From positions 310,001 to 374,000 of the forward strand of contig NZ_JALBFU010000002.1 in assembly GCF_022662575.1 (NCBI RefSeq): 64,000 nt of DNA, written 5' to 3'. Numbering within the stretch: the first letter of the stretch is position 1; the number at the start of each line of letters is the position of its first letter. The position numbers were made by a program, and so were the translations under genes. A model generated the notes under the pieces. The model had not been told where the DNA came from. It saw only the letters and a list, made by a program, of their open reading frames with translations, and ran no database searches. Shown piece by piece: positions 45,160 to 61,086 of the stretch. Origin of the DNA: Luteimonas aquatica (lineage in GTDB: Bacteria > Pseudomonadota > Gammaproteobacteria > Xanthomonadales > Xanthomonadaceae).

Positions 45160-45222
45160 ACCACGGGGCCCGACGGGGCCCGGTGCTAGAATCCGCGCCC
45201 GGATTTGCGTAGATCGACAGGC

Positions 45223-46407
45223 ATGAGCAACGACCACGGCGGGGACCAGAAGCGCCCCGGACACTGGCGGCTGGGCACCCGCGCCATCCACGCCGGACAG
45301 GCCCCGGATCCCAGCACCGGCGCGGTCATGCCGCCGATCTACGCCACCTCGACCTACGCCCAGGCCAGCCCGGGCGTGCACCAGGGATTCGAGTACTCGC
45401 GCACCCACAACCCGACCCGCTTCGCCTACGAGCGCTGCGCGGCCGGCCTGGAGGGCGGCAGCCGCGGTTTCGCCTTCGCCTCCGGCATGGCGGCGACCTC
45501 GACCCTGCTGGAGCTGCTCGACAGCGGCGACCACGTGGTCGCCATGGACGACCTGTACGGCGGCAGCTACCGCCTGTTCGAGCGCGTGCGCCGGCGCAGC
45601 GCCGGCCTGGACTTCGGCTTCGTCGACCTCACCGACCCGGACGCCTTCGCCGCGGCGATCCGTCCCGAGACGCGCATGGTCTGGGTGGAGACGCCGACCA
45701 ATCCCATGCTCAAGATCGTCGACCTGCAGGCGATCTCGGCGATCGCGCGCGCGCGCGGCATCCTGATGGTGGTCGACAACACCTTCGCCTCGCCGGCGCT
45801 GCAGCGCCCCCTCGAGCACGGCGCGGACATCGTGATGCACTCGGCCACCAAGTACCTCAACGGCCATTCCGACATGGTCGGCGGCATGGTGGTGGTGGGC
45901 GAGGACGCCGATCTCGCCGAGCGGCTCGCCTTCCTGCAGAACTCGGTCGGCGCGGTGCAGGGGCCGTTCGACAGCTTCCTGGCGCTGCGCGGGCTGAAGA
46001 CGCTGCACCTGCGCATGCGCGCGCACTGCGAGAACGCGCAGGCGCTGGCCGAATGGCTGCAGTCGCACCCGGCCATCGAGCAGGTGCTGTACCCGGGCCT
46101 GCCCTCGCATCCCCAGCACGCGCTGGCCAGGCGGCAGATGCACGGCTTCGGCGGCATCGTCTCGATCGTCTTCAAGGGCGGATACGAGGCGGCCAAGCGC
46201 TTCTGCGAGCGCACCGAGCTGTTCACGCTGGCCGAATCGCTGGGCGGCGTCGAGAGCCTGGTCAACCACCCGGCGGTGATGACGCACGCCTCGATCCCGG
46301 TCGAGCGCCGCGCCGCGCTGGGCATCCGCGATTCGCTGGTGCGCCTGTCGGTCGGCATCGAGGACCTCGACGACCTGCGCGCGGACCTGGAAGAGGCCCT
46401 GGCTTGA
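45223..46407 (+). CDS. metB: Cystathionine gamma-lyase/synthase (PLP trans-sulfuration enzyme)
   Basis: This 394-residue enzyme belongs to the Cys/Met metabolism PLP family. The PLP lysine is in IVMHSATKYLNGHSDMVGG, with GTRAIHAGQAPDPSTGAVMP at the N-terminus and VNHPAVMTHASIP near the end. The family contains both gamma-synthase and gamma-lyase activities; next to cbs, the lyase direction (cystathionine to cysteine) is likely. xanthomonads call this gene metB, and it is the conserved left border of their LPS cluster. TAGAAT at 45187 is a -10-like element. Confidence 0.93.
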   Translation: MSNDHGGDQKRPGHWRLGTRAIHAGQAPDPSTGAVMPPIYATSTYAQASPGVHQGFEYSRTHNPTRFAYERCAAGLEGGSRGFAFASGMAATSTLLELLDSGDHVVAMDDLYGGSYRLFERVRRRSAGLDFGFVDLTDPDAFAAAIRPETRMVWVETPTNPMLKIVDLQAISAIARARGILMVVDNTFASPALQRPLEHGADIVMHSATKYLNGHSDMVGGMVVVGEDADLAERLAFLQNSVGAVQGPFDSFLALRGLKTLHLRMRAHCENAQALAEWLQSHPAIEQVLYPGLPSHPQHALARRQMHGFGGIVSIVFKGGYEAAKRFCERTELFTLAESLGGVESLVNHPAVMTHASIPVERRAALGIRDSLVRLSVGIEDLDDLRADLEEALA

Positions 46408-46471: not shown

Positions 46472-47260
46472 GTGAAGTCGTTGCTGAAGGATCTCGCGGA
46501 CAGCTTCCGCAATCCGGAATTCTGGGCGCTTTCCACCTGGCTCGACATCGTGGTGCGCTACCGGCAGTCGCGGCTGGGCATCCTCTGGCTGTTCACGCCG
46601 CCGACCATCTACGTGTGGGGGCTGGGCGGATTCTTCGCCGCCATGCAGGGCGCGCACCTGGTGCAGTTCGTCGCCCACGTCGGCCTGGGCTACACGATCT
46701 TCCGCGCCATCAACAGCGTGATCGTGGAATCGACCACGGCCTTCACCGCCTCGAGCGCGTTCATCCTCGACGGCCACCTGCGCCTGACCGACTTCACCCT
46801 GCGCGTGGTGGCCAAGGCGCTGTTCTACTTCTGCATGGCGCTGCCGATCCTCGCGGCCGCGCTCGCCGTCTTTCCGCAGCTGCACTGGGACGGGCTGGCG
46901 CTGGCGCTGCTGACCTTTCCCTGGATCGTGGTCAACATCCTGTGGATCGCGGTGGTGTTCGCCCTGGTCGGCGCACGCTTTCCGGACCTGAGCCAGTTCA
47001 TCAACAACATCTTCATGTTCGCGTTCCTGTTCACGCCGATCATCTGGTACGGAACCTCGATGCCGCCGGACAGCCTGCGCGGCATCGTGATGCGGGTGAA
47101 TCCGCTCTACCACATGGTCGAGGTCGTGCGCGCGCCGATCCTGGGCGAGGCGATCGAGCCGCTGACGCTCTACTACCTGGGAACGATGACGCTGCTGGGC
47201 TGGGGCGCGGCGATCCTGCTCTACCGGCGCTATGCGCGCTACGTGCCGCTCTGGATCTGA
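46472..47260 (+). CDS. wzm: Polysaccharide ABC transporter permease Wzm
   Basis: This 262-residue integral membrane protein belongs to the ABC-2 exporter permeases that move completed O-antigen or capsule chains across the inner membrane. The sequence contains WLDIVVRYRQSRLGILWLF, six hydrophobic helices and FLFTPIIWYGTSMP near residue 190. The GTG at 46472 follows GGAGGGCGTG. The ATPase partner follows four bases after the stop. It is the first gene of the polysaccharide locus, 64 bases after metB with no terminator between. Confidence 0.93.
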   Translation: MKSLLKDLADSFRNPEFWALSTWLDIVVRYRQSRLGILWLFTPPTIYVWGLGGFFAAMQGAHLVQFVAHVGLGYTIFRAINSVIVESTTAFTASSAFILDGHLRLTDFTLRVVAKALFYFCMALPILAAALAVFPQLHWDGLALALLTFPWIVVNILWIAVVFALVGARFPDLSQFINNIFMFAFLFTPIIWYGTSMPPDSLRGIVMRVNPLYHMVEVVRAPILGEAIEPLTLYYLGTMTLLGWGAAILLYRRYARYVPLWI

Positions 47261-47263
47261 GCC

Positions 47264-48430
47264 GTGACGCAAGCATCCATCCATGTCGAGCGGCTTGCCC
47301 TGTCGGTGCCGATCTTCCTGCAGCGCGAACGCATGGCGCGCGGCTGGGCGAAGATGTTCCTCGGCGCGACGCTCGATCCGCCCGAGCGCCGCCTGGTCAA
47401 GCTGCTCGACGACGTCAGCTTCAAGGTGCGCGAGGGCGACCGCGTGGCGATCCTGGGCCGCAACGGCGCCGGCAAATCGACCCTGCTGCGCGTGCTCAAC
47501 GGCGTCTACGCGCCGACCTCGGGCCATGTGCGGGTCGTGGGCAGCTGTCAGGCCCTGCTCAACATGTCGCTCGGGTTCAACAGCGAGGCGACGGTGCGCG
47601 AGAACATCTTCCTGCGCGGCACCGCGATGGGGATGAAAGGGTCGGCGCTGCGCGAGCACATCGAGCCCATCCTGGATTTTTCCGGCCTCCACGAAAAGTC
47701 GAACCATCGGCTGAGAACGCTCTCGGCCGGCCAGAAGATGCGTCTCGGGTTCGCCATCTCCACCTCGTTCCAGCACGACGTCATCCTGATGGACGAATGG
47801 GTGGGCGCGGGCGATGCCGAGTTCATGGCCAAGGCGACCGAGCGGATGAAGAGCCGCGTGGCCGGCAGCAGGATCGTGATGCTCGCCAGCCACAGCGTCG
47901 GTCTGCTGCGCGATGTCTGCAACAAGGGCATCGTGCTCGAGCGTGGACGCCTGATGTACGTGGGCGAGATCGTCCCGGCCCTGCAGTATTACCACGACCT
48001 GCTGGCGGGCCTGCGCTCGCAGCCGGTGGAAGCCGTGGAGGAGCCGCAGGCGTCGAGCCAGGCCTACGGCTACATCGAGCACATCCGGCTCGAATCCGGC
48101 GTCGTGCACGTCGGCGGCTGGTGCATCGGCGCGGCCGGCGAGCTGCAGAACGCCCTGGTCATGGACGCGCACGGCGTGCGCATGCCCGCGGACCACTTCG
48201 AGCGCGTCAAGCGGCCCGACGTGGTGCGACACCTGGGGCTGAGCGAAGAGGACTGCGGCTTTCGCGCCAGGTTCTCGCTGCCCGGCGTCAGGAGCCTCTC
48301 CGAGATCGGCCCGGACGTGCAGTTGCTGGCCGGGGAATCGGCCGATCGGGCCGGCGGTTCTCTCAAGTTCGCCGATGCGGTGATCGAGGCGCTGCAGGGG
48401 CACCGGCAGCGCGACGCGCACAGGACCTGA
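47264..48430 (+). CDS. wzt: Polysaccharide ABC transporter ATPase Wzt with C-terminal glycan-recognition-like domain
   Basis: This 388-residue ATPase pairs with Wzm. Walker A is GRNGAGKST (65-73), the signature LSAGQKMRLGF (153-163), Walker B DVILMDEWV (172-180) and the switch His210. After residue 265 it has an extra domain of about 110 residues with GYIEHIRLESGVVHVGGW and FERVKRPDVVRHLG then CGFRARFSL. The same pattern ends the next protein and makes up the lipoprotein at 58080. In other Wzt proteins the C-terminal domain recognises the chain-terminating cap; the fold here is not the one I recognise from those. GTG start at 47264. Confidence 0.93.
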   Translation: MTQASIHVERLALSVPIFLQRERMARGWAKMFLGATLDPPERRLVKLLDDVSFKVREGDRVAILGRNGAGKSTLLRVLNGVYAPTSGHVRVVGSCQALLNMSLGFNSEATVRENIFLRGTAMGMKGSALREHIEPILDFSGLHEKSNHRLRTLSAGQKMRLGFAISTSFQHDVILMDEWVGAGDAEFMAKATERMKSRVAGSRIVMLASHSVGLLRDVCNKGIVLERGRLMYVGEIVPALQYYHDLLAGLRSQPVEAVEEPQASSQAYGYIEHIRLESGVVHVGGWCIGAAGELQNALVMDAHGVRMPADHFERVKRPDVVRHLGLSEEDCGFRARFSLPGVRSLSEIGPDVQLLAGESADRAGGSLKFADAVIEALQGHRQRDAHRT

Positions 48431-48435
48431 CCCGC

Positions 48436-49839
48436 ATGGCCCAGTACCAGTCCTTTCCCGAGATCGGCGGCGATTCGCTTTCGCTGGACAAGCTGAAGGC
48501 GCTGAACCTGCCCGACCTGAGCGGACGCCGTTTCCTCGACGTCGGTTGCAACGAAGGATTCTTCTGCGGTTTCGCCAAGTTCCAGGGCGCCGAGCGCGTG
48601 GTCGGGATCGATCACTCCGCGCTGTTCATCGAGCGCGCGCGCCGCCGCTTTCCGGAGTGCGAGTTCTACCGGCAGGATTGGCAGGAGATTCCCGCAGGCG
48701 TCTTCGACGTCATCCTGCTGGCGTCCTCGCTGCACTACGCCGAGGACCAGGCCGAGCTGATCCGGCGCCTGGTCGAACGGCTCTCGCCCGACGGCGTGCT
48801 GGTGCTGGAACTGGGCATCGTGCAGTTGATGAAGAACGACTGGGTCAAGGTGGAGCGGGGCATCGACGAGCGCCTGTTCCCGACCATGGCCAAGCTGCGC
48901 GAGACGCTGGAACCCTACGCGTGGAAATGGATCGGGGAGAGCGTGCTCCAGGCCGGGGATCCCGTGCCCAGGCACGTGGTGCACGTCAGCCGTCGCCGGC
49001 CGTTCGCCTATCTGCTGCTGCAACCGCCCGGCTACGGCAAGAGCACGATCGCGAAGAGCCTGTTCCTGCCCGCCGGCGTGGCCGCGGTCTCCGGCGACGA
49101 GCTGATCCTGCAGGTGGCCACCGGCAGGAAGGAGGCGCCCGCATCCCTGCAGGCGCTGCTGGCCGAGGACTTCTCCCCGTTCCGGATCGACCAGACGATA
49201 CGCAAGGTGTTCGAGGCGGGACTGGGGCCCGATCTGGTCGCGCTGTTCCGGCGCGAGGCCGACGGCGCCGATTTCGCGCTGGATGTCTACATCCCCGACG
49301 AACATCACGCATTGGTGGAGTCGCTGCTGTCGCAGGCGGGATATCTTCCGGTGACGATGCGATGGGGGAAGGCGGGCATGAGCCCGATGCCGCAAGAGGT
49401 GTCCGCCAGGCGGGCGGAAGGCTATTTCCTCGCCCTGGTCGAAAGCGGCCATGGGGAGGCGGGCCTGCCCGCGGATGCGCCGGCGACACGGGTTCCCGCG
49501 CAGGGCTTCATCGACGAGGCCGTGCTGTCCGACGATCTTTTGACCATCCGCGGCTGGGCCGTGAGCGAAACGGGCGAGGCGCCGCGCGTCCTGTCGGTCC
49601 GCGTGGGAGGGCAGGCGCACCTGATTTCGGCGTTCGAACGCCAGGCCCGCGCCGACGTGCAGGATTACCTCGGCCTGCCGCATGCGCTGTTCGGCTATCG
49701 GGTCAGTCTGGCCGTGCCCTCCGGGGCAGGCGCGGAGAAGTTGCTGGAAACCCTTGAGCTTCGCGCCGGCAGTGCCGAGAATTCGATGGGTCCCGTGCTG
49801 GCGTTCGCCACGCCGTTGGCGAAATCCGGACGGGGATGA
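48436..49839 (+). CDS. SAM methyltransferase fused to P-loop kinase-like domain and a C-terminal accessory domain
   Basis: This 467-residue protein has three parts. Residues 1-185 are a class I methyltransferase with motif I RRFLDVGCNEGFFCGFAKF and SSLHYAEDQAELI. Residues 188-340 hold a P-loop, QPPGYGKST (196-204), with a Zeta/APS-kinase-like flavour (SGDELI follows). Residues 355-460 repeat the domain seen in Wzt (GFIDEAVLSDDLLTIRGWAV, FERQARADVQDYLG, GYRVSLAV). The methyl-plus-kinase pairing recalls WbdD, which caps O-antigen with methyl phosphate, but its kinase is of another fold. The ATG at 48436 lies 5 bases after wzt. Proposed role: chain-end modification. Confidence 0.8.
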   Translation: MAQYQSFPEIGGDSLSLDKLKALNLPDLSGRRFLDVGCNEGFFCGFAKFQGAERVVGIDHSALFIERARRRFPECEFYRQDWQEIPAGVFDVILLASSLHYAEDQAELIRRLVERLSPDGVLVLELGIVQLMKNDWVKVERGIDERLFPTMAKLRETLEPYAWKWIGESVLQAGDPVPRHVVHVSRRRPFAYLLLQPPGYGKSTIAKSLFLPAGVAAVSGDELILQVATGRKEAPASLQALLAEDFSPFRIDQTIRKVFEAGLGPDLVALFRREADGADFALDVYIPDEHHALVESLLSQAGYLPVTMRWGKAGMSPMPQEVSARRAEGYFLALVESGHGEAGLPADAPATRVPAQGFIDEAVLSDDLLTIRGWAVSETGEAPRVLSVRVGGQAHLISAFERQARADVQDYLGLPHALFGYRVSLAVPSGAGAEKLLETLELRAGSAENSMGPVLAFATPLAKSGRG

Positions 49840-49986
49840 CGCCAGGCATGACGGATATCGGGGGCGTTTTCGCCGACGACGGGACGATTCGGATGACGGC
49901 CGGGGCCGAAGTGCGCAGGGGGAACGCACGGCGGGGGCGAATCGCATGACCGCTACGGTGGCACGGGAATTGATCGGAGGCAGCGC

Positions 49987-52056
49987 ATGCAACTAATCGT
50001 CTTGGGCATGCATCGCTCGGGAACGTCGGTTCTGGCCCGGCTCCTCAATCTCATGGGCGCCTATTTCGGACCCGAAGGCGTAAGTACGGGCGCGAATCAG
50101 GAAAATCCGAAAGGATTCTGGGAGCGGCGCGACGTACGGGCGCTCAACGATGCGGTGCTGCATGCCGTGGGCTGCGACTGGGACCGGGTACTGCGGTTCG
50201 ATGCGGGCGCGCTGCCGCAGGCGGTGGTGGCCGATTTCGACAAGCGCGCTTCCAAGCTGATCCTGGAGATGGACGCCCATCGCCCCTGGCTGCTGAAGGA
50301 GCCGAGGCTGTGCCTGCTGATGCCGCTGTGGCGCAAGTGGCTGGAAGCGCCGGTCTGCATCAGCATCTACCGCAACCCGGTGGAAGTCGCTTCCAGCCTC
50401 CACAGGCGCAATGGCATTCCCATCGAGGCGGGCATGATGCTGTGGGAGCGTTACGTGCGCTCGGCGCTGCAAGGGGCGGCCGGCTTGCCGGAAGTGGTGG
50501 TGTCCCACCGCGCCCTGATGCGCCAGCCGGGCGAAGCGGCCGAGGCGCTGTTCAAGCAGCTCGAGGAAAAAGGCGTGGCCGGGCTGAGAATGCCGGCGGC
50601 GCGGGAAGTTGAAGCATTCGTACAGGACAATCTGTACCGGGAACGCGAGTCGCGGGAGGACTTGCGCGCTTACGCGAAGGCCAGGCAACTGCGTCTGTTC
50701 AAGACGCTGGAAGCGGGGGGGCGGCCGTCAGCCGGCACGGCCAAGCAAGGCAAGGACGAGGAGGCCCTGGCGAAGTACGAGGCCGGCCTTCCCCCAATCA
50801 AAACGCGAGCAGAGGAAAAGATGCCGGAGACCATAGAAGCGACCTTGCGCGGACAGCTGGCGCTGCGCGAACAGGAAATCCAGTTCGTGCGCGAACTTTC
50901 CGGCAGGTTCGAAACCGACGCCAAGCAGTATCAGGAGCGGCTGGCCGGCGTCGAGCGCGAGCATTCCCTGGCGCGCGAGAGCGCCGCCAAGCTCGAGGCC
51001 AACCTGGCCCTGAGGCAGGAACAGCTGGCCAATACCGAGAACGAAACGCGGACGCTGCGGGAAACCGTCAGCGGCCTGGAGGCGGTACTGCACGAGCGCG
51101 ACCTGCGCCTGTCCGGCCTGCAGCGCGACCTGGATTCGGCGCGCGCGACATTGCTTTCGCTGGAGGCGGAAGTGCAGCGGCGCAGCGAGCGCATGCAGGG
51201 CGAGGGGCATCGGCTGGAGCAGGCCAAGCAGACCATCGCCGAGCTGGAGCACAAGCACGCGCTCGCCCGGCAGGCGTTGGACGACGGCCAGCGGCGTCTC
51301 GAGTCGGCGAGCGAGGCGGCGCGCGAAGCGGCCGCCGCGTTCGAGGCGGACATCGGGCGGCGCGCGCTCGAGCTGGCCGAGGCCGAGAAGCGGCTCGCTT
51401 CCTCGAAGGCCGAGACGCAGGCGTTGCGCGAGCAGCGGGATGGCATTCAGTCGACGCTGTCCGCGCGCGATGCCGAGCTGGCTTCGGCAAGGGACGAGCT
51501 GGCCAGGAAGACCGAGGAGTCGAAGCTGGAGAACGAAGCCAGGCGTCGCGTGGAAGCGAACCTGGAAGCGCGCTACCAGGAGCTGACCAAGCTGACGCAG
51601 TGGCTGCTGCGCCGCGAGCAAGAGTTCGCCGAGCTCAACGAGAGCCATCGGCGCCTGGAGATGAAGCAGTGGGCGGCCACGCATGAGTCCGCGGAGCTGA
51701 AGCGGCAGCTGGAAGCCATTCGCCGCAGCCGGGCCTGGAGGCTGGCGGCCCCGTTGCGGATGGCGGAGCGCGCCCTGGGAGGAGCGAGGGGGCAGGCCGG
51801 CGAGCTGAAGCTGTTGCAGCAGTCCGGCCTGTTCGACGAATCGTGGTATCTGCAGGCGTACCCGGACGTCGCACGCAGCGGCATGGCCGCGGCGGAGCAT
51901 TTCCTCCAATTCGGCGTCGCCGAAGGGCGCGATCCCGGTCCGGACTTCAGCACCGTCCATTACCTGAAGAAGTATCCGGACGTGGCCGACGCCGGCATCA
52001 ATCCGCTGTTGCACTACATCACTCACGGAAAGCTCGAAGGTCGCAGCTCAAAATGA
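49987..52056 (+). CDS. Sulfotransferase-like protein with long coiled coil and YPDV repeats
   Basis: This 689-residue protein starts with a sulfotransferase-like domain: the PAPS phosphate loop MHRSGTSVLARLLNLMG (about residues 7-23), then WLLKEPRLCLLMPLWRKW and SIYRNPVEVASSLHRR. From about residue 275 to 575 it is a continuous coiled coil rich in Glu, Leu, Arg and Ala. The last 80 residues carry two copies of a motif, LFDESWYLQAYPDV and VHYLKKYPDVADAGINPLLH with EGR endings, which reappears at the start of the next protein. It may sulfate the glycan and act as a spacer or ruler. The stop overlaps the next ATG (ATGA). Confidence 0.8.
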   Translation: MQLIVLGMHRSGTSVLARLLNLMGAYFGPEGVSTGANQENPKGFWERRDVRALNDAVLHAVGCDWDRVLRFDAGALPQAVVADFDKRASKLILEMDAHRPWLLKEPRLCLLMPLWRKWLEAPVCISIYRNPVEVASSLHRRNGIPIEAGMMLWERYVRSALQGAAGLPEVVVSHRALMRQPGEAAEALFKQLEEKGVAGLRMPAAREVEAFVQDNLYRERESREDLRAYAKARQLRLFKTLEAGGRPSAGTAKQGKDEEALAKYEAGLPPIKTRAEEKMPETIEATLRGQLALREQEIQFVRELSGRFETDAKQYQERLAGVEREHSLARESAAKLEANLALRQEQLANTENETRTLRETVSGLEAVLHERDLRLSGLQRDLDSARATLLSLEAEVQRRSERMQGEGHRLEQAKQTIAELEHKHALARQALDDGQRRLESASEAAREAAAAFEADIGRRALELAEAEKRLASSKAETQALREQRDGIQSTLSARDAELASARDELARKTEESKLENEARRRVEANLEARYQELTKLTQWLLRREQEFAELNESHRRLEMKQWAATHESAELKRQLEAIRRSRAWRLAAPLRMAERALGGARGQAGELKLLQQSGLFDESWYLQAYPDVARSGMAAAEHFLQFGVAEGRDPGPDFSTVHYLKKYPDVADAGINPLLHYITHGKLEGRSSK

Positions 52057-55000
52057 ACAACATCGAAGCCGACATCAAGCTGATTCGCGAATCCGGGATG
52101 TTCGACGAGCAGTGGTATCTCAAGGAATATCCCGACGTAGGCGCCCTGGGGCTGGATCCGTATGCGCATTACCTGCATATCGGCGCCAAGCTCGGGCGGC
52201 ATCCGGGGCCGGGGTTCGATGCCGCTTGGTACCTGAACAGCTATCAGGACGTGGCGAAGCTGCAGCTCAATCCGCTGCTGCATTACCTCACCCATGGGCG
52301 TTTCGAAGGGCGCGAGATCCGCCGGATCGACCATGGCCGGGGCGACGCGGCGCAGGTGCAGGACGACGACCGCGGCTGCCTGACGATCCTGCCGGGAGCC
52401 GGCGGAAAGATGCCGGACCTGTTCCGCCTCAAGGCGCTGCAGCCGCAGTCGAAGACGCTGTTCGTCACCTACAGCGCCTCGCTCAGCGAAGCCGCCCAGG
52501 TCGACCGCCTGCTGCAGGAGCAGGACGAGGCGTTCGACCACATCGCCCTCTGTCCGATCAGCCTGATGGTGAAGAACCCGGTCTCCGTCGCCACCGGCTG
52601 CCGCCAGAAGAGCATCGTGATCTACCCCGACCGCTACGGCCGCGCCGCGCCGTTCGCGCACCTTTTGGAAGCGGGAATCCTGACGCGGTACGAAGCGGTG
52701 TGCTGGATCAACAGGGGCGCAGGCGGGTCCGCCGACGTCAAGGGCCTGGCGGCATCGCTGCGCGGGCACGCCGATATCGGCCTGGTCAGCCAGGGCAAGA
52801 CGTCCTACGCCGGAGGCAGCGACCCCGAAATCAAGCGCATGCTGAGCACCTTCCTGCCGCGCCTGAGCCGCAAGATGCCGGAAAAGGCGCATACGCCCGT
52901 CGGCGCGGTGACCTGGATCAATCCGTTGTTGCTGCACCAGCTGCGGGCGATCCCGGTGCGTCCGCACGAACTGCTGGACAAGCAGGGCAAGGCGCACGAG
53001 GCCGGCGTGTCCGCGCTGCTTGCGCTGATGGGAATCGTCGCCGAGGAAGGCGGCATGGAGCAGCTGGATTTCGCCGCCGCGAAAGAGCGCGCGAAAACGC
53101 CGCCGAAAGGCGCTGCGGCGAAGAAGCGCAAGGTGAAGGCGATCGCCTTCTACCTGCCGCAGTTCCACCCGATTCCCGAGAACGATCTCTGGTGGGGGAA
53201 GGGCTTCACCGAGTGGAACAACGTGGTCCGCGCGAAGCAGATGTTCCGCGGCCACAACCAGCCTCGCGTTCCGGCGGACCTTGGCTATTACGACCTGCGC
53301 CTGCCGCAGACGCAGGAAGCGCAGGCGCAGCTGGCGCAAAGCCACGGCGTGCACGGCTTCTGCTACTACTACTACTGGTTCAACGGCAAGAAGCTGCTGA
53401 ACCAGCCGATCGAGCAGATGGTGAAGCTCGGGCGGCCCAACATGCCCTTCTGCGTCTGCTGGGCGAACGAGAACTGGTCGCGCAACTGGGACGGGCAGAA
53501 CCGCCACGTCCTGCTGGAGCAGCAGTATTCGATGGACAGCAACCGTCTTTTCATCCGGGAGATGATCCCGATGATGAAGGACCCGCGCTACATCCGTCAC
53601 CACGGCAAGCCGCTGCTGCTGGTCTACAGGATCCGCATCATTCCCAACTGGCGCGAAACCGCGGAGATGTGGCGCGAGGAATGCCGCCGCGCCGGCATCG
53701 GCGAGATCCATTTGTGCGCCGTGCGCTTCGGCCTGGAACCGCTGGACGGCCCGCCCGAGCAGTTCGGGGTGGATTCCTACGTGCTGTTCCCGCCGCACGA
53801 AACCGCGCGGCTCGACGTGCGGGCGGAGCAGATCGACCTGCAGCGCGATTTCGGCGGCGAGCTGTTCAGCTACGACGCGGTGGTCGATGGCGACGTGTCG
53901 CGCTTCTCCGAGGGTTATCCCTGGCCGGTGCACCGCGGCGCCATGATGGCGTGGGACAACACGGCCAGGCGGCTGGGCGACGCGCGCATCTTCGTCGGCT
54001 CGACGCCGGCGCGGTTCCGCTACTGGCTGCGCAAGATCGTCGAGCAGGAGAACAGGTTCAACGGCGACGACGAAAGCCTGGTGTTCATCAACGCATGGAA
54101 CGAATGGGCGGAAGGCACCTACCTGGAGCCGGACCAGCGCTTCGGCACGGGCTACCTGTCGGCGGTGAAATCCGCGTTCGCCGATTGCGACACCGGCCCG
54201 GTCACGGTGTCGGCGCCGGCGCAGCCGCCGGTGCTGCCTTTGCCGAAACCCGAAACGCCTGCCGCTGCGCAGCCGGCCAATGCCCGGCGCGCCCAGCAGA
54301 TACTGCCGAAGTGGCACCCCGGCGAGCGCCCGCTGCTGGAAGGCGCGCCCGCGGTGCTGCTGTGCGCGCACATCTCCGGCCACCAATTGTTCGGCGGCGA
54401 AAGAAGCTTCCTGGATGTGCTCAAGGCGCTGACGCGGCTGAACCTCAATGTCTTCGTCACGCTGCCGAGCGGCAACAACAAGGCCTACGTGGAAAGCGTC
54501 CGGCAACTGTCCGCGGGCGTGTATGTGTTCAGCTATCCGCAGTGGATGCAGAACCGCGAGGCGGACGAGGCCCTGGTGCTGACGTTCGCCGACATCATCG
54601 CCCGCCACGACATCGCGCTGGTGCACGCCAATACCATCGTGCTGCTGGAGCCGCTGATCGCCGCGCGACGGATGAACCGCATTCCGCTGATCCATTCCCG
54701 CGAGCTGATTACCCTGGACGAGTCGCTTCGCGACAGGATGGGGTTGTCGGCGCAGGAGATCATCCGCAAGGTCTTCGAGCTCTCGGACTACCTGATCGCG
54801 AACTCGCGCGCCACCGCCGGCGCGTTCCCCCGGCAGGGGCGGACGTTCCACGCCACCAACGTGGTCGATCCGGCCGGCTTCGATGCGCCCAACGTCGTCG
54901 ACGGGCCGATCCGCTTCGCGATCGTCAGCAGCAACATCCCCAAGAAGGGCGTTGCCGATTTCCTGGACGTGGCCAAGCACTGCGAAGGCAAGGTCGAGAA

Positions 55001-56333
55001 CGCCGAGTTCCTGGTCATCGGCCCGGAAAACAAGCAGATCGAACAGTGGCGCGGCGAGCAGAAGCGCGGCGCCATTCCCGCCAACGTCAGGTTCCTGGGC
55101 TACCGCGACACGCCCGAGGAGGCGATGGCGGAGGCCAACGTCATCCTCAACCTGTCCAACTTCGCCGAATCCTTCGGGCGCACCGCGGCGGAAGCGATGG
55201 CCGCGCGCCGCCCGGTGATCGCCTACGAATGGGGTGCACTGCCGGAGCTGGTGCGGCACGGCGTCACCGGCTTCCTGGCACCCTACCGCGATACCGCCGC
55301 CGTCGCGGCCTACGTGGCGGAGCTGTGCGGGAACCCGGAGCGCATCGCGGAAATGGGCGCGGCGGGACGGGCGTTCGTGGAAGGCAACTGCACGCCGGAG
55401 AAGCTCTTCGAGCATTTGCGCACGGCGTATGGCGCCATCTTCGGCGACGAGGTCGTCCGGCGCACGCCGGTGCCGACGGCCCCCTCGGCGAGGCGCCGCT
55501 CGCTGACGATCGTGGTGCCGGTCTACAACGCGCAGGCGGAAGTGCGCGCCTGCCTCGAGTCGGTGGTGCGCAATACCGACCTCGCCAGCCACCAGGTGAT
55601 CGTGATCAACGACGGCAGCACCGACCCGGCGATCGCCGAGCTCCTGGCCGGCTATCAGGGCACGCACGGCATCTCGATCCACAGCAACGAACGCAACCTC
55701 GGCTATACCAAGACGGTCAATATCGGCCTGCGCGAAGCCGGCGACGACGACGTGGTGCTGTTGAACAGCGATACCGTCGTGACGCCGCAATGGGTCGAAG
55801 GGCTCCGCACGACCGCGTACGCCGAGCCGGACATCGGGACGGTGACGGCGATGAGCGACAACGCCGGCGCATTCTCCTTCCCGGTGCAAGGCAAGCCCAA
55901 TCCCAAGCCGGCGCACGTCAGCCACGACGATTACGCCGCGGCGATCGTCCAGGCGACGGCCGGGTGCCAGCCGATCGAAGTGCCGACCGGTTCGGGCTTC
56001 TGCATGTACATCCGCCGCGAATTGATCGAGCGGATCGGCGCGTTCGACGAGGAAGCCTTCCCGCGCGGCTACGGCGAGGAGAACGACTTCTGCATGCGCG
56101 CCGTGCAGGCGGGGTGGCGCAACCTGATCACGCCGCGCTCCTTCGTCTTCCATGTCAGGAGCGCGAGCTTCGGCGCCGCCAAGGCGGAGCTGGTGCAGCA
56201 GGGCGTCGATGTCGTGACCAGGCGCTATCCGGACTACAGCAAGCTCACCCGCGCCGCATTCTCCTCTTCGCAGATGAAGGCGCTGCAGCAGGTCGTGACC
56301 GAGGCAGCGTCTTCCATGGTGGCGCTGGAGTAG
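52053..56333 (+). CDS. Giant multi-domain glycosyltransferase (RgpF-like, WbsX, GT4, GT2)
   Basis: This 1426-residue protein joins several sugar-transfer modules. Residues 10-90 hold two WYLKEYPDV-type repeats. About 115-350 resembles rhamnan synthesis protein F (VGAVTWINPLLLHQLRAI). About 358-710 is a WbsX/GH99-like domain (AIAFYLPQFHPIPENDLWWG, CWANENWSRNWDG, INAWNEWAEGTYLEPD). About 763-1130 is a GT4 fold (FGGERSFLDVLKAL, ILNLSNFAESFGRTAAEAMA). About 1149-1420 is GT2 (LTIVVPVYNAQAEVRACLES, LLNSDTVV). It probably adds several residues of the O-chain repeat. The ATG overlaps the upstream stop. Confidence 0.88.
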   Translation: MNNIEADIKLIRESGMFDEQWYLKEYPDVGALGLDPYAHYLHIGAKLGRHPGPGFDAAWYLNSYQDVAKLQLNPLLHYLTHGRFEGREIRRIDHGRGDAAQVQDDDRGCLTILPGAGGKMPDLFRLKALQPQSKTLFVTYSASLSEAAQVDRLLQEQDEAFDHIALCPISLMVKNPVSVATGCRQKSIVIYPDRYGRAAPFAHLLEAGILTRYEAVCWINRGAGGSADVKGLAASLRGHADIGLVSQGKTSYAGGSDPEIKRMLSTFLPRLSRKMPEKAHTPVGAVTWINPLLLHQLRAIPVRPHELLDKQGKAHEAGVSALLALMGIVAEEGGMEQLDFAAAKERAKTPPKGAAAKKRKVKAIAFYLPQFHPIPENDLWWGKGFTEWNNVVRAKQMFRGHNQPRVPADLGYYDLRLPQTQEAQAQLAQSHGVHGFCYYYYWFNGKKLLNQPIEQMVKLGRPNMPFCVCWANENWSRNWDGQNRHVLLEQQYSMDSNRLFIREMIPMMKDPRYIRHHGKPLLLVYRIRIIPNWRETAEMWREECRRAGIGEIHLCAVRFGLEPLDGPPEQFGVDSYVLFPPHETARLDVRAEQIDLQRDFGGELFSYDAVVDGDVSRFSEGYPWPVHRGAMMAWDNTARRLGDARIFVGSTPARFRYWLRKIVEQENRFNGDDESLVFINAWNEWAEGTYLEPDQRFGTGYLSAVKSAFADCDTGPVTVSAPAQPPVLPLPKPETPAAAQPANARRAQQILPKWHPGERPLLEGAPAVLLCAHISGHQLFGGERSFLDVLKALTRLNLNVFVTLPSGNNKAYVESVRQLSAGVYVFSYPQWMQNREADEALVLTFADIIARHDIALVHANTIVLLEPLIAARRMNRIPLIHSRELITLDESLRDRMGLSAQEIIRKVFELSDYLIANSRATAGAFPRQGRTFHATNVVDPAGFDAPNVVDGPIRFAIVSSNIPKKGVADFLDVAKHCEGKVENAEFLVIGPENKQIEQWRGEQKRGAIPANVRFLGYRDTPEEAMAEANVILNLSNFAESFGRTAAEAMAARRPVIAYEWGALPELVRHGVTGFLAPYRDTAAVAAYVAELCGNPERIAEMGAAGRAFVEGNCTPEKLFEHLRTAYGAIFGDEVVRRTPVPTAPSARRRSLTIVVPVYNAQAEVRACLESVVRNTDLASHQVIVINDGSTDPAIAELLAGYQGTHGISIHSNERNLGYTKTVNIGLREAGDDDVVLLNSDTVVTPQWVEGLRTTAYAEPDIGTVTAMSDNAGAFSFPVQGKPNPKPAHVSHDDYAAAIVQATAGCQPIEVPTGSGFCMYIRRELIERIGAFDEEAFPRGYGEENDFCMRAVQAGWRNLITPRSFVFHVRSASFGAAKAELVQQGVDVVTRRYPDYSKLTRAAFSSSQMKALQQVVTEAASSMVALE

Positions 56334-56425: not shown

Positions 56426-57124
56426 ATGCAAGTCGAAGTCAGGTGCAACGTCTGCGGTTCGTCGGACTTTACCGACGTCAATGGCCGGAAGGCCGTGCTG
56501 TGCGCGAACTGCGGCTCCTACGAGCGGACGCGGCTGATGAAGATGTACATCGAGAGCCTGGGGCTGCCGCCCGAGTCGCGCGTGCTGCACCTGGCGCCCG
56601 AGCGCGGCCTGTCGGAGTGGTTGAGGGAAACCTTTTCCGACTACGTTCCCGCCGACTACGACCTGGAGCGCTACTCGCACATCCCCGGCATCCGCAAGGT
56701 CGACCTGTGCCAGCGCGACTACGAGCTGCCCGGGAAGTTCGATCTGATCCTGCATTCGCATGTCATCGAACACCTGCCTTGCAGCTACGCCGTGGTGCTC
56801 ATCCGCCTGCACAAGATGCTCAATCCGGACGGGCACCATCTGTTCTCGATTCCGATCTACGGGGCTTCCTACGAGGAGTCCCTGGCGCCGCTCTCGCACG
56901 AGGAGGCGACCCGGCGCTTCGGCCAGTTCGACCACGTGCGTCGGTTCTCGCCGCGCGACATCGGCCAAACGATCGGATCGGTCTTCGACATTCCGACGGA
57001 ATATCGCCTGAAGGAGCGGTTCCCGGCGGAGCGGCTGCGCGCGGCCGCCATTCCGGAAAACGCCTGGGACGAATACACCGGGCATTCGGTGTTCAGCCTG
57101 AGACCGGCGGATCTTCTGGTGTGA
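56426..57124 (+). CDS. Zinc-ribbon class I methyltransferase
   Basis: This 232-residue protein starts with a four-cysteine knuckle (Cys7, Cys10, Cys26, Cys29: CNVC and CANC), followed by a Rossmann methyltransferase. The usual glycine motif I is replaced by RVLHLAPERGLSEWL, and later motifs are LILHSHVIEHLPCSY and MLNPDGHHLFSIPIYG. The ATG at 56426 has GGGAG five bases upstream; an in-frame ATG at 56348 would add 26 poorly conserved residues. It probably methylates a sugar. The next gene has the same layout. Confidence 0.82.
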   Translation: MQVEVRCNVCGSSDFTDVNGRKAVLCANCGSYERTRLMKMYIESLGLPPESRVLHLAPERGLSEWLRETFSDYVPADYDLERYSHIPGIRKVDLCQRDYELPGKFDLILHSHVIEHLPCSYAVVLIRLHKMLNPDGHHLFSIPIYGASYEESLAPLSHEEATRRFGQFDHVRRFSPRDIGQTIGSVFDIPTEYRLKERFPAERLRAAAIPENAWDEYTGHSVFSLRPADLLV

Positions 57125-57179: not shown

Positions 57180-57959
57180 TTGAGCGACGACCATCCGAAA
57201 GACAGCGGCGCGAAGTACCACATCGAGATCCTGGGGTACTGCCCGATTTGCGAGCGCTCCGCCAGGTTCGTCTCAAACAACATCTGGCTGCGCGGCGCAT
57301 TGACCTGCCTGACCTGTGAAAACGGTTCCGTGCCCCGCGAAAGGGCGCTCGCCCACGTGCTCAACCGCGTGGCGCCGGACTGGCGCAAGCTGCGGATCCA
57401 CGAGTCGTCCCCGGCCACCCGCGGCATCTCGGCCAAGCTTCGCCGCGAATGCGCCGGCTATACGGGCAGCCACTTCTTCCCGGACTCGCCGATGGGCGAG
57501 CAGGTGGGCGGCTACCGCAACGAGAACCTGGAAGCCCAAACCTTCGAGGACGGCATTTTCGACATCGTGGTCACCCTGGACGTCTTCGAGCACGTCTTCC
57601 AGCCCGGGGCCATGATTAAGGAGATTCATCGGACATTGAAGCCCGGCGGAATATATCTATGCACCTTTCCCATCCGGGCCGGGCAGGTCGAGTCGCATAA
57701 ACCGCGGGCGCGGCTGCGGCCGGACGGGAGCGTCGAGCACCTGGAGAAACCGGAATATCACGGCAACCCGATCAACGAGGAGGGGGCCTTGGTGACCTGG
57801 GATTACGGGTACACTATCCACCAGATGCTGTCGTACTGGGCCGATTTCGACGTAGAGATCCTGCGGTTTTCGAAACAAAGCATCGGTGTGCTTGGCGAAT
57901 ATACCGATGTGGTTTTGTGTACAAAGCGCTGGAGCGAGTCGGTTCTCAAGCACGCTTGA
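57180..57959 (+). CDS. Second zinc-ribbon methyltransferase-like protein
   Basis: This 259-residue protein has cysteines 21, 24, 43 and 46 (CPIC and CLTC), then a Rossmann domain with IFDIVVTLDVFEHVFQPGAM and LKPGGIYLCTFPI. Motif I reads LRIHESSPATRG rather than a glycine-rich loop, so SAM binding may be altered. It looks like a diverged paralogue of the preceding gene in layout. The only usable start is TTG 57180, with GGAG upstream. A role in decorating the glycan is inferred from context. Confidence 0.75.
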   Translation: MSDDHPKDSGAKYHIEILGYCPICERSARFVSNNIWLRGALTCLTCENGSVPRERALAHVLNRVAPDWRKLRIHESSPATRGISAKLRRECAGYTGSHFFPDSPMGEQVGGYRNENLEAQTFEDGIFDIVVTLDVFEHVFQPGAMIKEIHRTLKPGGIYLCTFPIRAGQVESHKPRARLRPDGSVEHLEKPEYHGNPINEEGALVTWDYGYTIHQMLSYWADFDVEILRFSKQSIGVLGEYTDVVLCTKRWSESVLKHA

Positions 57960-58079
57960 CGCCGGATTATCCCGTGGAGCCTCGCCTTTCCACGGATGCG
58001 ACCCGGTCGCCCGCGTCCTCCGCTCCGCCATCCGTCATCCCGCAACATTCCACTCTCCCGTTATCCCAGGATTTTCATT

Positions 58080-58646
58080 ATGAGAACCAAAGTAGGCAAC
58101 GCCGTCATCATGCCGATGGTCCTGCTCGGGCTGCTCGCCGCCTGCGGCGAAAAGCAGGCGGACGCGCCGGCGCAGCAGCCTTCCGCCGAGCAGCCGGGCA
58201 CGCAGCCCGCCGCCCGCAAGCCGCTGTCCATGCGCACCACCGACGTGCGCCTGAAGACCGGCACCGCCCAGAACAAGAGCTGCAACATCGAGACCGCCAA
58301 CGGCACGCTGTTCTGGCCGGAGTCGCCCAAGGCGACCAAGACCGCCACGATCGACATCGGCGGCTGGATCGTCGACGAGGAATCGAAGTCGATTCCGAAC
58401 AACGTCAAGATCCGCTTGCAGACGGCCAACGGCATTTCGGCCTGGGAGCAGGACATCGTCAACCGCGGCGACCGCGCCGATGTCGCCAAGCACCTGGGCT
58501 CGCCCGAGTACCTCAAGTCCGGCTTCAAGGTCAGCCTGGACGTCGCCGATCTGGCGCCCGGCGACTATGTCGTCTATCTGGCTTTCGACACCCCGAAGGG
58601 CGAAGCCGTTTGCGGGATCGGCCGCCGCCTGACGCTGGCGCCCTGA
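58080..58646 (+). CDS. Lipoprotein with the accessory domain shared with Wzt
   Basis: This 188-residue protein has a lipoprotein signal with lipobox LLAAC (Cys22), a Gln/Ala/Pro linker to about residue 48, and one beta-rich domain. IDIGGWIVDEESKSIP (91-106), RADVAKHLGSPEYLKSGFKV (132-151) and LAPGDYVVYLAF parallel the C-terminal domains of Wzt and the methyltransferase-kinase. A single pair of cysteines (Cys68, Cys178) could form a disulfide bond. It is probably a periplasmic or outer-membrane glycan-binding factor. The ATG at 58080 is fixed by the signal peptide. Confidence 0.75.
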   Translation: MRTKVGNAVIMPMVLLGLLAACGEKQADAPAQQPSAEQPGTQPAARKPLSMRTTDVRLKTGTAQNKSCNIETANGTLFWPESPKATKTATIDIGGWIVDEESKSIPNNVKIRLQTANGISAWEQDIVNRGDRADVAKHLGSPEYLKSGFKVSLDVADLAPGDYVVYLAFDTPKGEAVCGIGRRLTLAP

Positions 58647-58713: not shown

Positions 58714-61086
58714 ATGAGTGTTCGAGTCTCCGTGACACAGGGTCAAGGCATGCGCCCGGAGGCGCATCCAGGCGGCGGGCATCCCGTCCCCGCGGTGCTG
58801 AGGCAAGGCTGGTCCGGGCGCCGCCGGCGCATGCGGTTGCAGCCGATGAGCCAGCTCGAGCGGATCGAGACCGCGGACGCCGGCGCGGCCTGGCGGGTCA
58901 CCGGCGAGGATCCGTGGTTCGCCTTCCAGAGCGATGAAGGCGCGCCCGCCCGGCTGGCGGGCGGGTGGTACCGGCTGCGGCTCCGGCTCGACCCCCGGCA
59001 CGGAGGCCTCGTCGCGCCGTGCTTCTATCCGGACTACGGCCAGGGGGTCATGTACGGCGATGCCATCCCGTTGCCCGAGTCGGGCGGCGATGGCGCCATC
59101 GATACGCTGGTGCTGTTCAAGCACGACGTCCATGCCTTGCGCTTCGATCCCACGCTCAAGCGCAGCAACTTCGAGCTGCGCCGCTTCGAGCTGCAGCGGC
59201 TCGGGCGCTTTTCCGCATTGCTCGACATGCTGCTTGGGCTGCGCAGGCCGCCGGGCGAAGGCGGGTGGCGGCGCGTCGGCGGCGCGGCGGGACGGTTCGC
59301 ACGTACCGCCTCGCGCCGCGGCCTGTCGGAGGCCGCGCGCGAACTGTTCTCCGAGCATACGCGCGGGCTGCAGGGCAGCAGCGACGGCTATGCCGAATGG
59401 GTCGACCGCTACGACACCATCGGCGCCGCCGAATTCGATGCGATGCGGCAGCGCGCGGCCGCGCTGGGCGACGGCCCGCTGATCTCGCTGGTCGTGCCCG
59501 TCTACGAGACGCCCGAGCGCTGGCTGCGGCAATGCCTCGACAGCGTGCTGCGGCAGGCGTATCCGCGCTGGGAGCTGTGCATCGCCGACGACGCCTCGCC
59601 TTCCCCGCGCGTGCGCGAGCTGTTGCGCGAATACGAGCGTCGCGATCCGCGCATCCGCGTCGCCTACCGCGAAAGCAACGGCCATATCTCGCAGGCCTCC
59701 AATTCGGCGCTGGCGCTGGCGACGGGCGATTTCGTCGGCCTGCTCGATCACGACGACGAACTGCGCCCGCACGCGCTGCTGGAGATGGCCGAGGCGATCG
59801 CCGGAAATCCGGAGCTGCAGCTGCTGTATTCGGACGAGGACAAGATCGACGAAGAGGGGCGCCGCTTCCATCCGTATTTCAAGCCGGGCTGGAATCCGGA
59901 CCTGCTGCGCTCGCAGAACTACCTTTGCCATTTCACGGTGGCGCGCACGGCGCTGGTGCGCGAGGTCGGCGGCTTCCGCGCGGGCTTCGAGGGCAGCCAG
60001 GACCATGACCTGGTACTGCGCTGCAGCGAGCGCCTGGCGGCCGGGCAGATCCGGCACGTCCCCAAGGTGCTCTACCACTGGCGCGCCATCGCGGGATCGA
60101 CCGCGCTCGGGCGCGACGCGAAGGATTACGCCTCCGCCGCGGGCTGCCGCGCCGTCGACGACCACCTCAGGCGCACCGATGCCGCCGCCGGGGCGGAAGA
60201 GCTGGCGCATGGGCACTACCGCGTGCGCTGGCGGTTGCCGGATCCGGCGCCCAAGGTGACGGTAATCATTCCGACGCGCGACAAGGTCGGCCTGCTCCGC
60301 AACTGCGTCGACAGCCTGCTGCGGCGGACCCGCTATCCGAACTACGAAATCCTGGTCGTGGACAACCAGTCCGGCGAACCCGAGACCCTGGCGTACCTGG
60401 ACGAATTGCGCGACAGCGGCGCGGCGCGCGTGCTGGCCTATGACGCGCCGTTCAACTATTCCGCGATCAACAATTGGGCGGTCGGGCAGGCCGACGGCGA
60501 GATCCTGTGCCTGCTCAACAACGACATCGAGGTGATCTCGGAGGAGTGGCTGGAGGAAATGGCCGGACACGCCTGGCGTCCCGAGGTCGGCGCGGTCGGC
60601 GCCATGCTGTACTACCCGGACGACCGCATCCAGCACGCCGGCGTCATCCTGGGCGTGGGCGGCGTGGCCAACCATGCCTACGCGGGACAGCTGCGCGGCC
60701 ATGCCGGGCACGGTGCGCGCGCCAAGGTGGCGCAGGACCTGTCGGCTGTGACCGGTGCGTGCCTGGTGGTCCGGCGCAGCGTCTATCGGCAGCTGGGCGG
60801 CCTCGACGAGCGCCTGCAAGTGGCGTTCAACGACATCGACTTCTGCCTGCGCCTGCGCGAAGCCGGGTATCTCAATGTATGGACGCCGTTCGCCGAGCTG
60901 TACCATCACGAATCGGCCTCGAGAGGCAACGACCTGGCGCCCGAGAAGCTGCAGCGCTTCCTCGGCGAGGTCCGGCACATGGAGGAACGCTGGCGCGATT
61001 GGCTGCAGAGCGATCCTGCCTACAATCCGAACCTGAGCCTGAACGATCTGAATTCCGGCCTGGCTTTCCCGCCGCGACGCTCGTGA
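58714..61086 (+). CDS. Two-domain GT2 glycosyltransferase
   Basis: This 790-residue protein has an N-terminal domain of unknown function (about 45-165), then two GT2 catalytic domains. The first starts near residue 256 (PLISLVVPVYETPERWLRQC, CIADDASP, LLYSDEDKIDEEG), the second near 512 (PKVTVIIPTRDKVGLLRNCV, LVVDNQSGEP, CLLNNDIEV). It presumably adds two successive sugars. Starts at 58714, 58831 or 58846 are possible; the first is the longest and lies 67 bases after the lipoprotein stop. Confidence 0.88.
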   Translation: MSVRVSVTQGQGMRPEAHPGGGHPVPAVLRQGWSGRRRRMRLQPMSQLERIETADAGAAWRVTGEDPWFAFQSDEGAPARLAGGWYRLRLRLDPRHGGLVAPCFYPDYGQGVMYGDAIPLPESGGDGAIDTLVLFKHDVHALRFDPTLKRSNFELRRFELQRLGRFSALLDMLLGLRRPPGEGGWRRVGGAAGRFARTASRRGLSEAARELFSEHTRGLQGSSDGYAEWVDRYDTIGAAEFDAMRQRAAALGDGPLISLVVPVYETPERWLRQCLDSVLRQAYPRWELCIADDASPSPRVRELLREYERRDPRIRVAYRESNGHISQASNSALALATGDFVGLLDHDDELRPHALLEMAEAIAGNPELQLLYSDEDKIDEEGRRFHPYFKPGWNPDLLRSQNYLCHFTVARTALVREVGGFRAGFEGSQDHDLVLRCSERLAAGQIRHVPKVLYHWRAIAGSTALGRDAKDYASAAGCRAVDDHLRRTDAAAGAEELAHGHYRVRWRLPDPAPKVTVIIPTRDKVGLLRNCVDSLLRRTRYPNYEILVVDNQSGEPETLAYLDELRDSGAARVLAYDAPFNYSAINNWAVGQADGEILCLLNNDIEVISEEWLEEMAGHAWRPEVGAVGAMLYYPDDRIQHAGVILGVGGVANHAYAGQLRGHAGHGARAKVAQDLSAVTGACLVVRRSVYRQLGGLDERLQVAFNDIDFCLRLREAGYLNVWTPFAELYHHESASRGNDLAPEKLQRFLGEVRHMEERWRDWLQSDPAYNPNLSLNDLNSGLAFPPRRS

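Follow-up and report, generated by a model that had tools for sequence, protein, structure and literature searches.

Which protein ends the polysaccharide chain made by the gene cluster described here, and what does the exporter read on that chain? Chain termination sets the length of an O antigen and licenses its export; the terminator of WbbB, to take one example, is a Kdo transferase. In the systems described, the terminating enzyme is found at the end of a coiled coil, far from the polymerase, and the chain end is read by Wzt (PMC11231755, PMC11127046), which bears a carbohydrate-binding module (CBM) in these precedents (PMC11231755, PMC11127046, PMC3482155). The cap chemistries described for such systems, in the sections of these sources drawn on here, are methyl, methyl-phosphate, and Kdo.

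The window, i.e., the whole stretch of DNA analyzed, comprises 64,000 nucleotides of a Luteimonas aquatica genome (G000, contig C13, positions 310001-374000). A preliminary description had seen in three consecutive genes, encoding Wzt, a methyltransferase fused to a P-loop kinase-like domain (MTK), and a sulfotransferase fused to a coiled coil (ST-CC), a rebuilt version of the termination logic of WbdD, in which the coil of ST-CC would serve as a separate ruler. The parts of this proposal are considered below in the light of domain searches, predicted models, and the occurrence of the genes in other genomes.

Organization of the Gene Cluster

The cluster likely encodes an ABC-exported polysaccharide pathway for an outer sugar coat. 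Its gene order is metC-type, wzm, wzt, MTK, ST-CC, large glycosyltransferase, two small genes, lipoprotein, double GT2, and DUF2142, all ranges of window positions given here being on the + strand. The first gene is of the cystathionine gamma-lyase type (45220..46407), presumably metC, and is upstream of wzm and wzt in relatives too; the order metC-wzm-wzt was found again in relatives' loci. The named loci that match the window best are from Pseudoxanthomonas, Lysobacter, and Luteimonas. The wzm gene (46472..47260; 262 aa) encodes a likely O-polysaccharide ABC transporter permease, which matches NCBIfam NF050109 (galactan_ABC_perm) with 146.6 bits, under the equivalog cut-off of 380, and for which a Pfam search gave no match.

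The three genes of the preliminary description are real and consecutive. The 388-aa Wzt (47264..48430, GTG start) has an ATPase domain (residues about 40-250) and a C-terminal domain predicted to be a beta-sandwich (48038..48418). MTK (48436..49839) combines a methyltransferase domain (residues 1-190), a P-loop kinase-like domain (190-340), and a C-terminal domain (352-460; 49483..49836) homologous to that of Wzt. ST-CC (49987..52056) is followed, with an ATGA overlap, by the gene of a large glycosyltransferase (52053..56333) with YPDV repeats, a WbsX domain (E 4.6e-129), and GT4 and GT2 domains (Pfam, on 52068-56330), likely the polymerase partner. Two small genes come next, one at 56443 with no family assigned and a methyltransferase gene at 57180, and then a lipoprotein gene (58080..58646, within the ORF 57996-58646) with the lipobox LLAAC. 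The double GT2 glycosyltransferase (58714..61086), homologues of which recur close to MTK in other loci, precedes a DUF2142 membrane protein.

The Sulfotransferase-Coiled-Coil Protein

ST-CC joins an enzyme head to a long coiled coil: the sulfotransferase head (residues 1-230) is followed by a predicted rod within about 275-597, with coil predicted for about 307-597, and by a tail of 84 aa with two YPDV-type repeats. Residues 287-453 match SMC-type proteins, supporting the coil call. With a helix rise of 0.15 nm per residue, the 323-residue helix of the rod would span about 48 nm.

A homology search for the sulfotransferase domain finds 1103 proteins at E<=0.001. Among the 119 of these that were listed, query excluded, the head is found in all 119, the rod in 109, and the tail in 101. 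Median identity to ST-CC among these listed matches is 66% for the head and 56% for the tail but 26% for the rod, and the head-to-tail spacer ranges from 103 to 556 aa (n=101), against 375 in ST-CC. A coil of at least 100 aa is predicted in 96 of the 119 listed homologues and a shorter one in 23, the detector being home-made and crude. The GMHRSGTS loop, R129, and S137, which we take to be the residues binding the 5'-phosphosulfate and 3'-phosphate of PAPS, are invariant in 138 of 138 sequences (P0003, the 119 listed homologues of the 1103, and 18 locus ORFs), although loop invariance is partly built in for the locus ORFs, which were chosen by a GMHRSGT-like motif. The genome also encodes an APS kinase.

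The tail module shares 50% identity with the repeats at the N-terminus of the large glycosyltransferase, on which it likely docks the rod. In some homologues these parts are fused: P0113 combines sulfotransferase, coil, and glycosyltransferase domains, and P0109 combines sulfotransferase, YPDV repeats, GT2, and GT4. Directly 3' of wzt at locus L110, a protein of 1166 aa has a sulfotransferase match (120 bits), a coil at 280-514, and two GT2 stretches, and at L114 a sulfotransferase-coil protein (108 bits) directly follows wzt; in both cases the sulfotransferase was recognized by phmmer, not by Pfam at E<=0.001, and the wzt upstream bears a canonical Wzt_C. At L109 and L108, a sulfotransferase protein is found beside a wzt of 247-261 aa, with no room for a reader domain. 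Since ST-CC has its own conserved head in the position known from terminators, and since sulfotransferase, coil, and glycosyltransferases can be fused, ST-CC probably acts as a terminator itself, and is the stronger candidate of the two, rather than serving as a ruler for MTK, as had been supposed.

The layout of ST-CC is that of the Klebsiella O7 and O12 terminators but with a sulfotransferase head, where WbbB has its Kdo transferase. Most simply read, this layout would have sulfate end the chain and the rod determine how long the chain becomes. WbbB from K. pneumoniae O12 unites terminator, coil, and glycosyltransferases in one protein (PMC11231755), as do P0113 and L110. In the wbsalmo cluster of Aeromonas salmonicida, the Wzt gene precedes that of a protein of 216 aa described as "with domain Sulfotransferase", after which comes WbbB (PMC4483657); a head and a long rod would not fit into 216 aa, and the protein does not figure among the mutants listed (PMC4483657). 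No published report of a sulfotransferase terminator was found in the open-access literature searched. As far as these searches go, it is above all the sulfotransferase in the terminator's seat that is new.

The Methyltransferase-P-loop Protein

MTK has a SAM methyltransferase domain. The active-site residues of the protein are invariant in the alignment, K202 and D221 being found in 49 of 49 members. This alignment (A1) holds 48 loci and the window; of the 53 MTK loci, L045 and L046 were dropped by the start rule and L037, L047, and L052 were left out. A further alignment, A4, used 24 of the 49 rows. The kinase-like region shows a GK[ST] motif and, by sequence, matches P-loop families, and no eukaryotic-type protein-kinase domain as in WbdD was found, in agreement with the preliminary description. 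AAA+ ATPases are matched by the P-loop profile as well, so that the term kinase follows from fold class and context, and the first glycine of the Walker A motif (position 196) varies, being Q in 23 and G in 12 of 49. MTK likely adds phosphate and/or methyl. No coiled coil was detected in MTK by the same home-made detector, and its predicted model has a sandwich domain at the C-terminus, where WbdD has its coil.

Like MTK, WbdD from E. coli O9a has a methyltransferase fused to a kinase and works with a Wzt carrying a C-terminal module, and a coiled coil and a glycosyltransferase-recruiting C-terminus are found in that system too (PMC3482155). However, the kinase of WbdD is of the eukaryotic type and the coil is part of WbdD itself (PMC3482155), while in the window the kinase-like domain is of the P-loop type and the coil is found on the sulfotransferase. 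ORF6 of K. pneumoniae O7 is closer in that it combines a methyltransferase with a kinase other than that of WbdD, together with an Ig-like domain; its terminator head, coiled coil, and glycosyltransferases are in one complex, and export is of the ABC type (PMC11231755). Its kinase resembles the aminoglycoside kinase AmiN rather than a P-loop protein, the coil belongs to the same polypeptide, and no sulfotransferase is described for it (PMC11231755). ORF6 was shown to add methyl-phosphate (PMC11231755); for MTK, the addition of phosphate and/or methyl is a prediction. The idea of a methyltransferase-kinase terminator is thus already known from WbdD and Klebsiella O7, and the pairing of a methyltransferase with a different kinase is less novel than first supposed. 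As far as the searches go, what is new in combination is that an enzyme of this kind has a P-loop domain and that exporter, enzyme, and lipoprotein have in common a module not matching Wzt_C.

Some variants of MTK can be found. In three Desulfovibrio loci (L036, L037, and L038), the protein ends in a YPDV-type repeat in place of the sandwich domain, as if docking on the type of partner that ST-CC has here. In the G011 variant (L068 / L120:9334-10623), the P-loop and C-terminal parts match, and the N-terminal part misses the methyltransferase domain query. A methyltransferase-P-loop relative is also found on a contig labeled Micrarchaeota archaeon (L053).

Wzt and the GW Domain

The ATPase of Wzt is well recognized (Pfam ABC_tran, E 1e-21). 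Its best NCBIfam match is to the galactan-type subfamily (NF050108, 177.6 bits, under the cut-off of 400), whose members, to our knowledge, have no CBM. The C-terminus of Wzt does not match Pfam Wzt_C (PF14524), and hhalign against the C-termini of five Wzt proteins (PF14524 being confirmed for two) gave a probability of 0.3. It is homologous to the C-terminus of MTK (27% over 113 aa, E 5e-12), which bears out the earlier remark that Wzt ends like the capping enzyme; this region of homology is here named the GW domain. Like the CBM of PF14524, it is a C-terminal domain on an export ATPase, but it gives no Pfam match.

The GW domain is common to three proteins of the cluster, namely Wzt, MTK, and the lipoprotein, in which it was found by hhalign (probability 96, E 3.4e-9) and with a profile of the domain, which matches the ORF at E 1.3e-7. 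An orthologue of the lipoprotein is found in genome G101 (L115:16219-16791) and a distant one at L110. The domain alignment (A3) has 39 rows, L016 having been dropped from the 22 MTK GW ends extracted. From its predicted fold and genomic context, the GW domain is likely a carbohydrate-reading module. It is rather doubtful that it is instead a generic assembly domain, joining Wzt, MTK, glycosyltransferases, and the lipoprotein without reading sugar: weak GW-like copies are indeed seen in glycosyltransferase-like proteins and, at L002, in a membrane protein, and the solved folds nearest to the GW model are the N-terminal domains of TarL and TarK, yet the lipoprotein copy is predicted to be extracytoplasmic, where it could not bind cytoplasmic partners, and a common glycan ligand would be simplest. 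As a carbohydrate reader, the domain suggests through its lipoprotein copy that the same glycan feature may be handled outside the cytoplasm too. Elsewhere, at L049:3091-3714, a short ORF with a GW-like domain is followed by a second sulfotransferase-like start (HVPKTAGTSF).

Co-occurrence across Genomes

In a survey of 149 genomes of the family, with MTK called at E<=1e-25 and ST at E<=1e-30, MTK was found in 13 and ST in 14, both together in only six; the three genes are no fixed trio. All 13 MTK genomes have a close GW-type Wzt, which is found in 14 of the 149, and MTK lies directly downstream of wzt in 12 of the 13. In G007, MTK is on another contig and the Wzt alignment stops at residue 318, leaving the GW part unrecovered; the MTK of G011 is divergent, matching only from residue 149. 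In G562 (L002), from outside this sample, MTK is about 12 kb from a GW-type Wzt. The 14 ST genomes comprise six with MTK and Wzt-GW, one with Wzt-GW only (G101), and seven with other wzt types, and in 13 of them ST and a wzt match share a contig and are no more than 15 kb apart, G007 having the two on different contigs. At the above thresholds, ST was not found in seven of the 13 MTK genomes, nor MTK in G101, despite its Wzt-GW and ST-CC. Between metC and the double GT2, each gene of the window's cluster has its counterpart in the locus of G101, with the sole exception of MTK. Its Wzt is the nearest to that of the window, and since the tree pairs both (97/92) inside the MTK-bearing clade, loss of MTK in G101 is the simplest reading.

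These counts bear on the possibility that the true terminator is MTK, recognized by Wzt via the GW domains, and that ST-CC is only a scaffold setting the length, its sulfotransferase decorating repeat units all along the chain. The GW domain common to Wzt and MTK, the presence of MTK in 13 of the 14 genomes with a close GW-type Wzt, and a Wzt tree in which these 14 form one clade, whereas ST needs four changes, would fit such a role. We nevertheless regard it as unlikely, as G101 retains the cluster, Wzt-GW included, without MTK, no coil is detected in MTK, and sulfotransferase-coil proteins elsewhere adjoin a Wzt_C-bearing wzt without MTK. Moreover, close GW-type Wzts are seen with MTK only (seven genomes) and with ST only (G101), and more distant ones with neither (G138, G090, G015, and G078), so that the GW domain is at most a candidate reader of either cap.

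In a sample of the phylum, ST was found in 6 of 398 genomes, G000 among them; of the other five, three show a wzt-like gene at most 5 kb away (218 aa long in one case), and in two none is present in the 20 kb fetched. For MTK, 28 of the 53 locus genomes were chosen (3 Lysobacteraceae, 25 others), with a wzt-like match within 30 kb in 12, at 33 kb in one, on other contigs only in 12, and none in three. Of the 25 genomes from outside the family, 9 have a wzt-like ATPase no more than 30 kb from MTK, seven of these nine ATPases being open frames of only 223-328 aa. No matching coiled-coil protein was found in the fetched flanks of the family-type MTK loci L006, L010, L013, L014, and L015, nor in those of the non-family loci L018, L019, and L020; in L021 of Rhizobiaceae, an ST-like coil protein comes after MTK. 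Three MTK loci where no ST was seen have coiled-coil proteins whose heads resemble each other but are of a different type (VVLVVGAGNG or a close variant), which may represent a further exchangeable head for a ruler (L004:19496-20737, L005:15276-16739, and L016:14098-15030).

MTK and ST-CC thus occur independently of each other. Of the rebuilt WbdD logic, the layout of a capping enzyme plus exporter and the kinase-like domain unlike that of WbdD stand, whereas the fixed trio and the separate ruler do not. The sulfate could also be placed within the chain, or on a different glycan altogether. It is quite improbable that ST-CC and MTK both decorate internal residues or side branches, with the coil assembling the complex and export kinetics setting the length as in CBM-less transporters. 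Although the independent gain and loss of ST and MTK, the CBM-less wzt of some ST loci, and the galactan-type affinity of the Wzt ATPase are compatible with this, a conserved head and tail on a rod of variable length, the fusions of sulfotransferase, coil, and glycosyltransferase, and the GW domain on the window's Wzt argue against it.

Proposed Mechanism and Significance

Taken as a whole, the proposal that ST-CC is a ruler-mounted terminator, that MTK finishes the end, and that the GW domain on Wzt reads the chain has, in our estimate, an even chance of being right. The tail of ST-CC would hold the rod on the adjacent glycosyltransferase via the common repeat module, the rod would measure chain length, and the head would sulfate the growing chain end on its reaching the top of the predicted rod. 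MTK would then complete the end with phosphate and/or methyl, gripping the glycan by its GW domain, and the GW domain of Wzt would read the chain or its finished end, coupling it to export by Wzm/Wzt. The addition of these groups, their place at the non-reducing end, the measuring role of the rod, and the ligand of the GW domain are what we infer.

More generally, and with somewhat less than even confidence, it can be hypothesized that sulfate is an unrecognized chain-terminating mark of bacterial polysaccharides exported by ABC transporters, that a large family of rod-borne sulfotransferases both stops and measures the chain, and that the GW domain, as a hitherto undescribed module of the exporter, a second capping enzyme with a P-loop kinase, and a lipoprotein, recognizes one and the same glycan inside and outside the membrane. 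If so, a sulfotransferase head on a ruler would be a new cap chemistry with many homologues, and the natural variants of the rod would make tests of rod length possible. Wzt proteins would then seem to carry reader domains of two classes, and the cluster of the G101 relative, without MTK, would be a natural control separating the two candidate caps.
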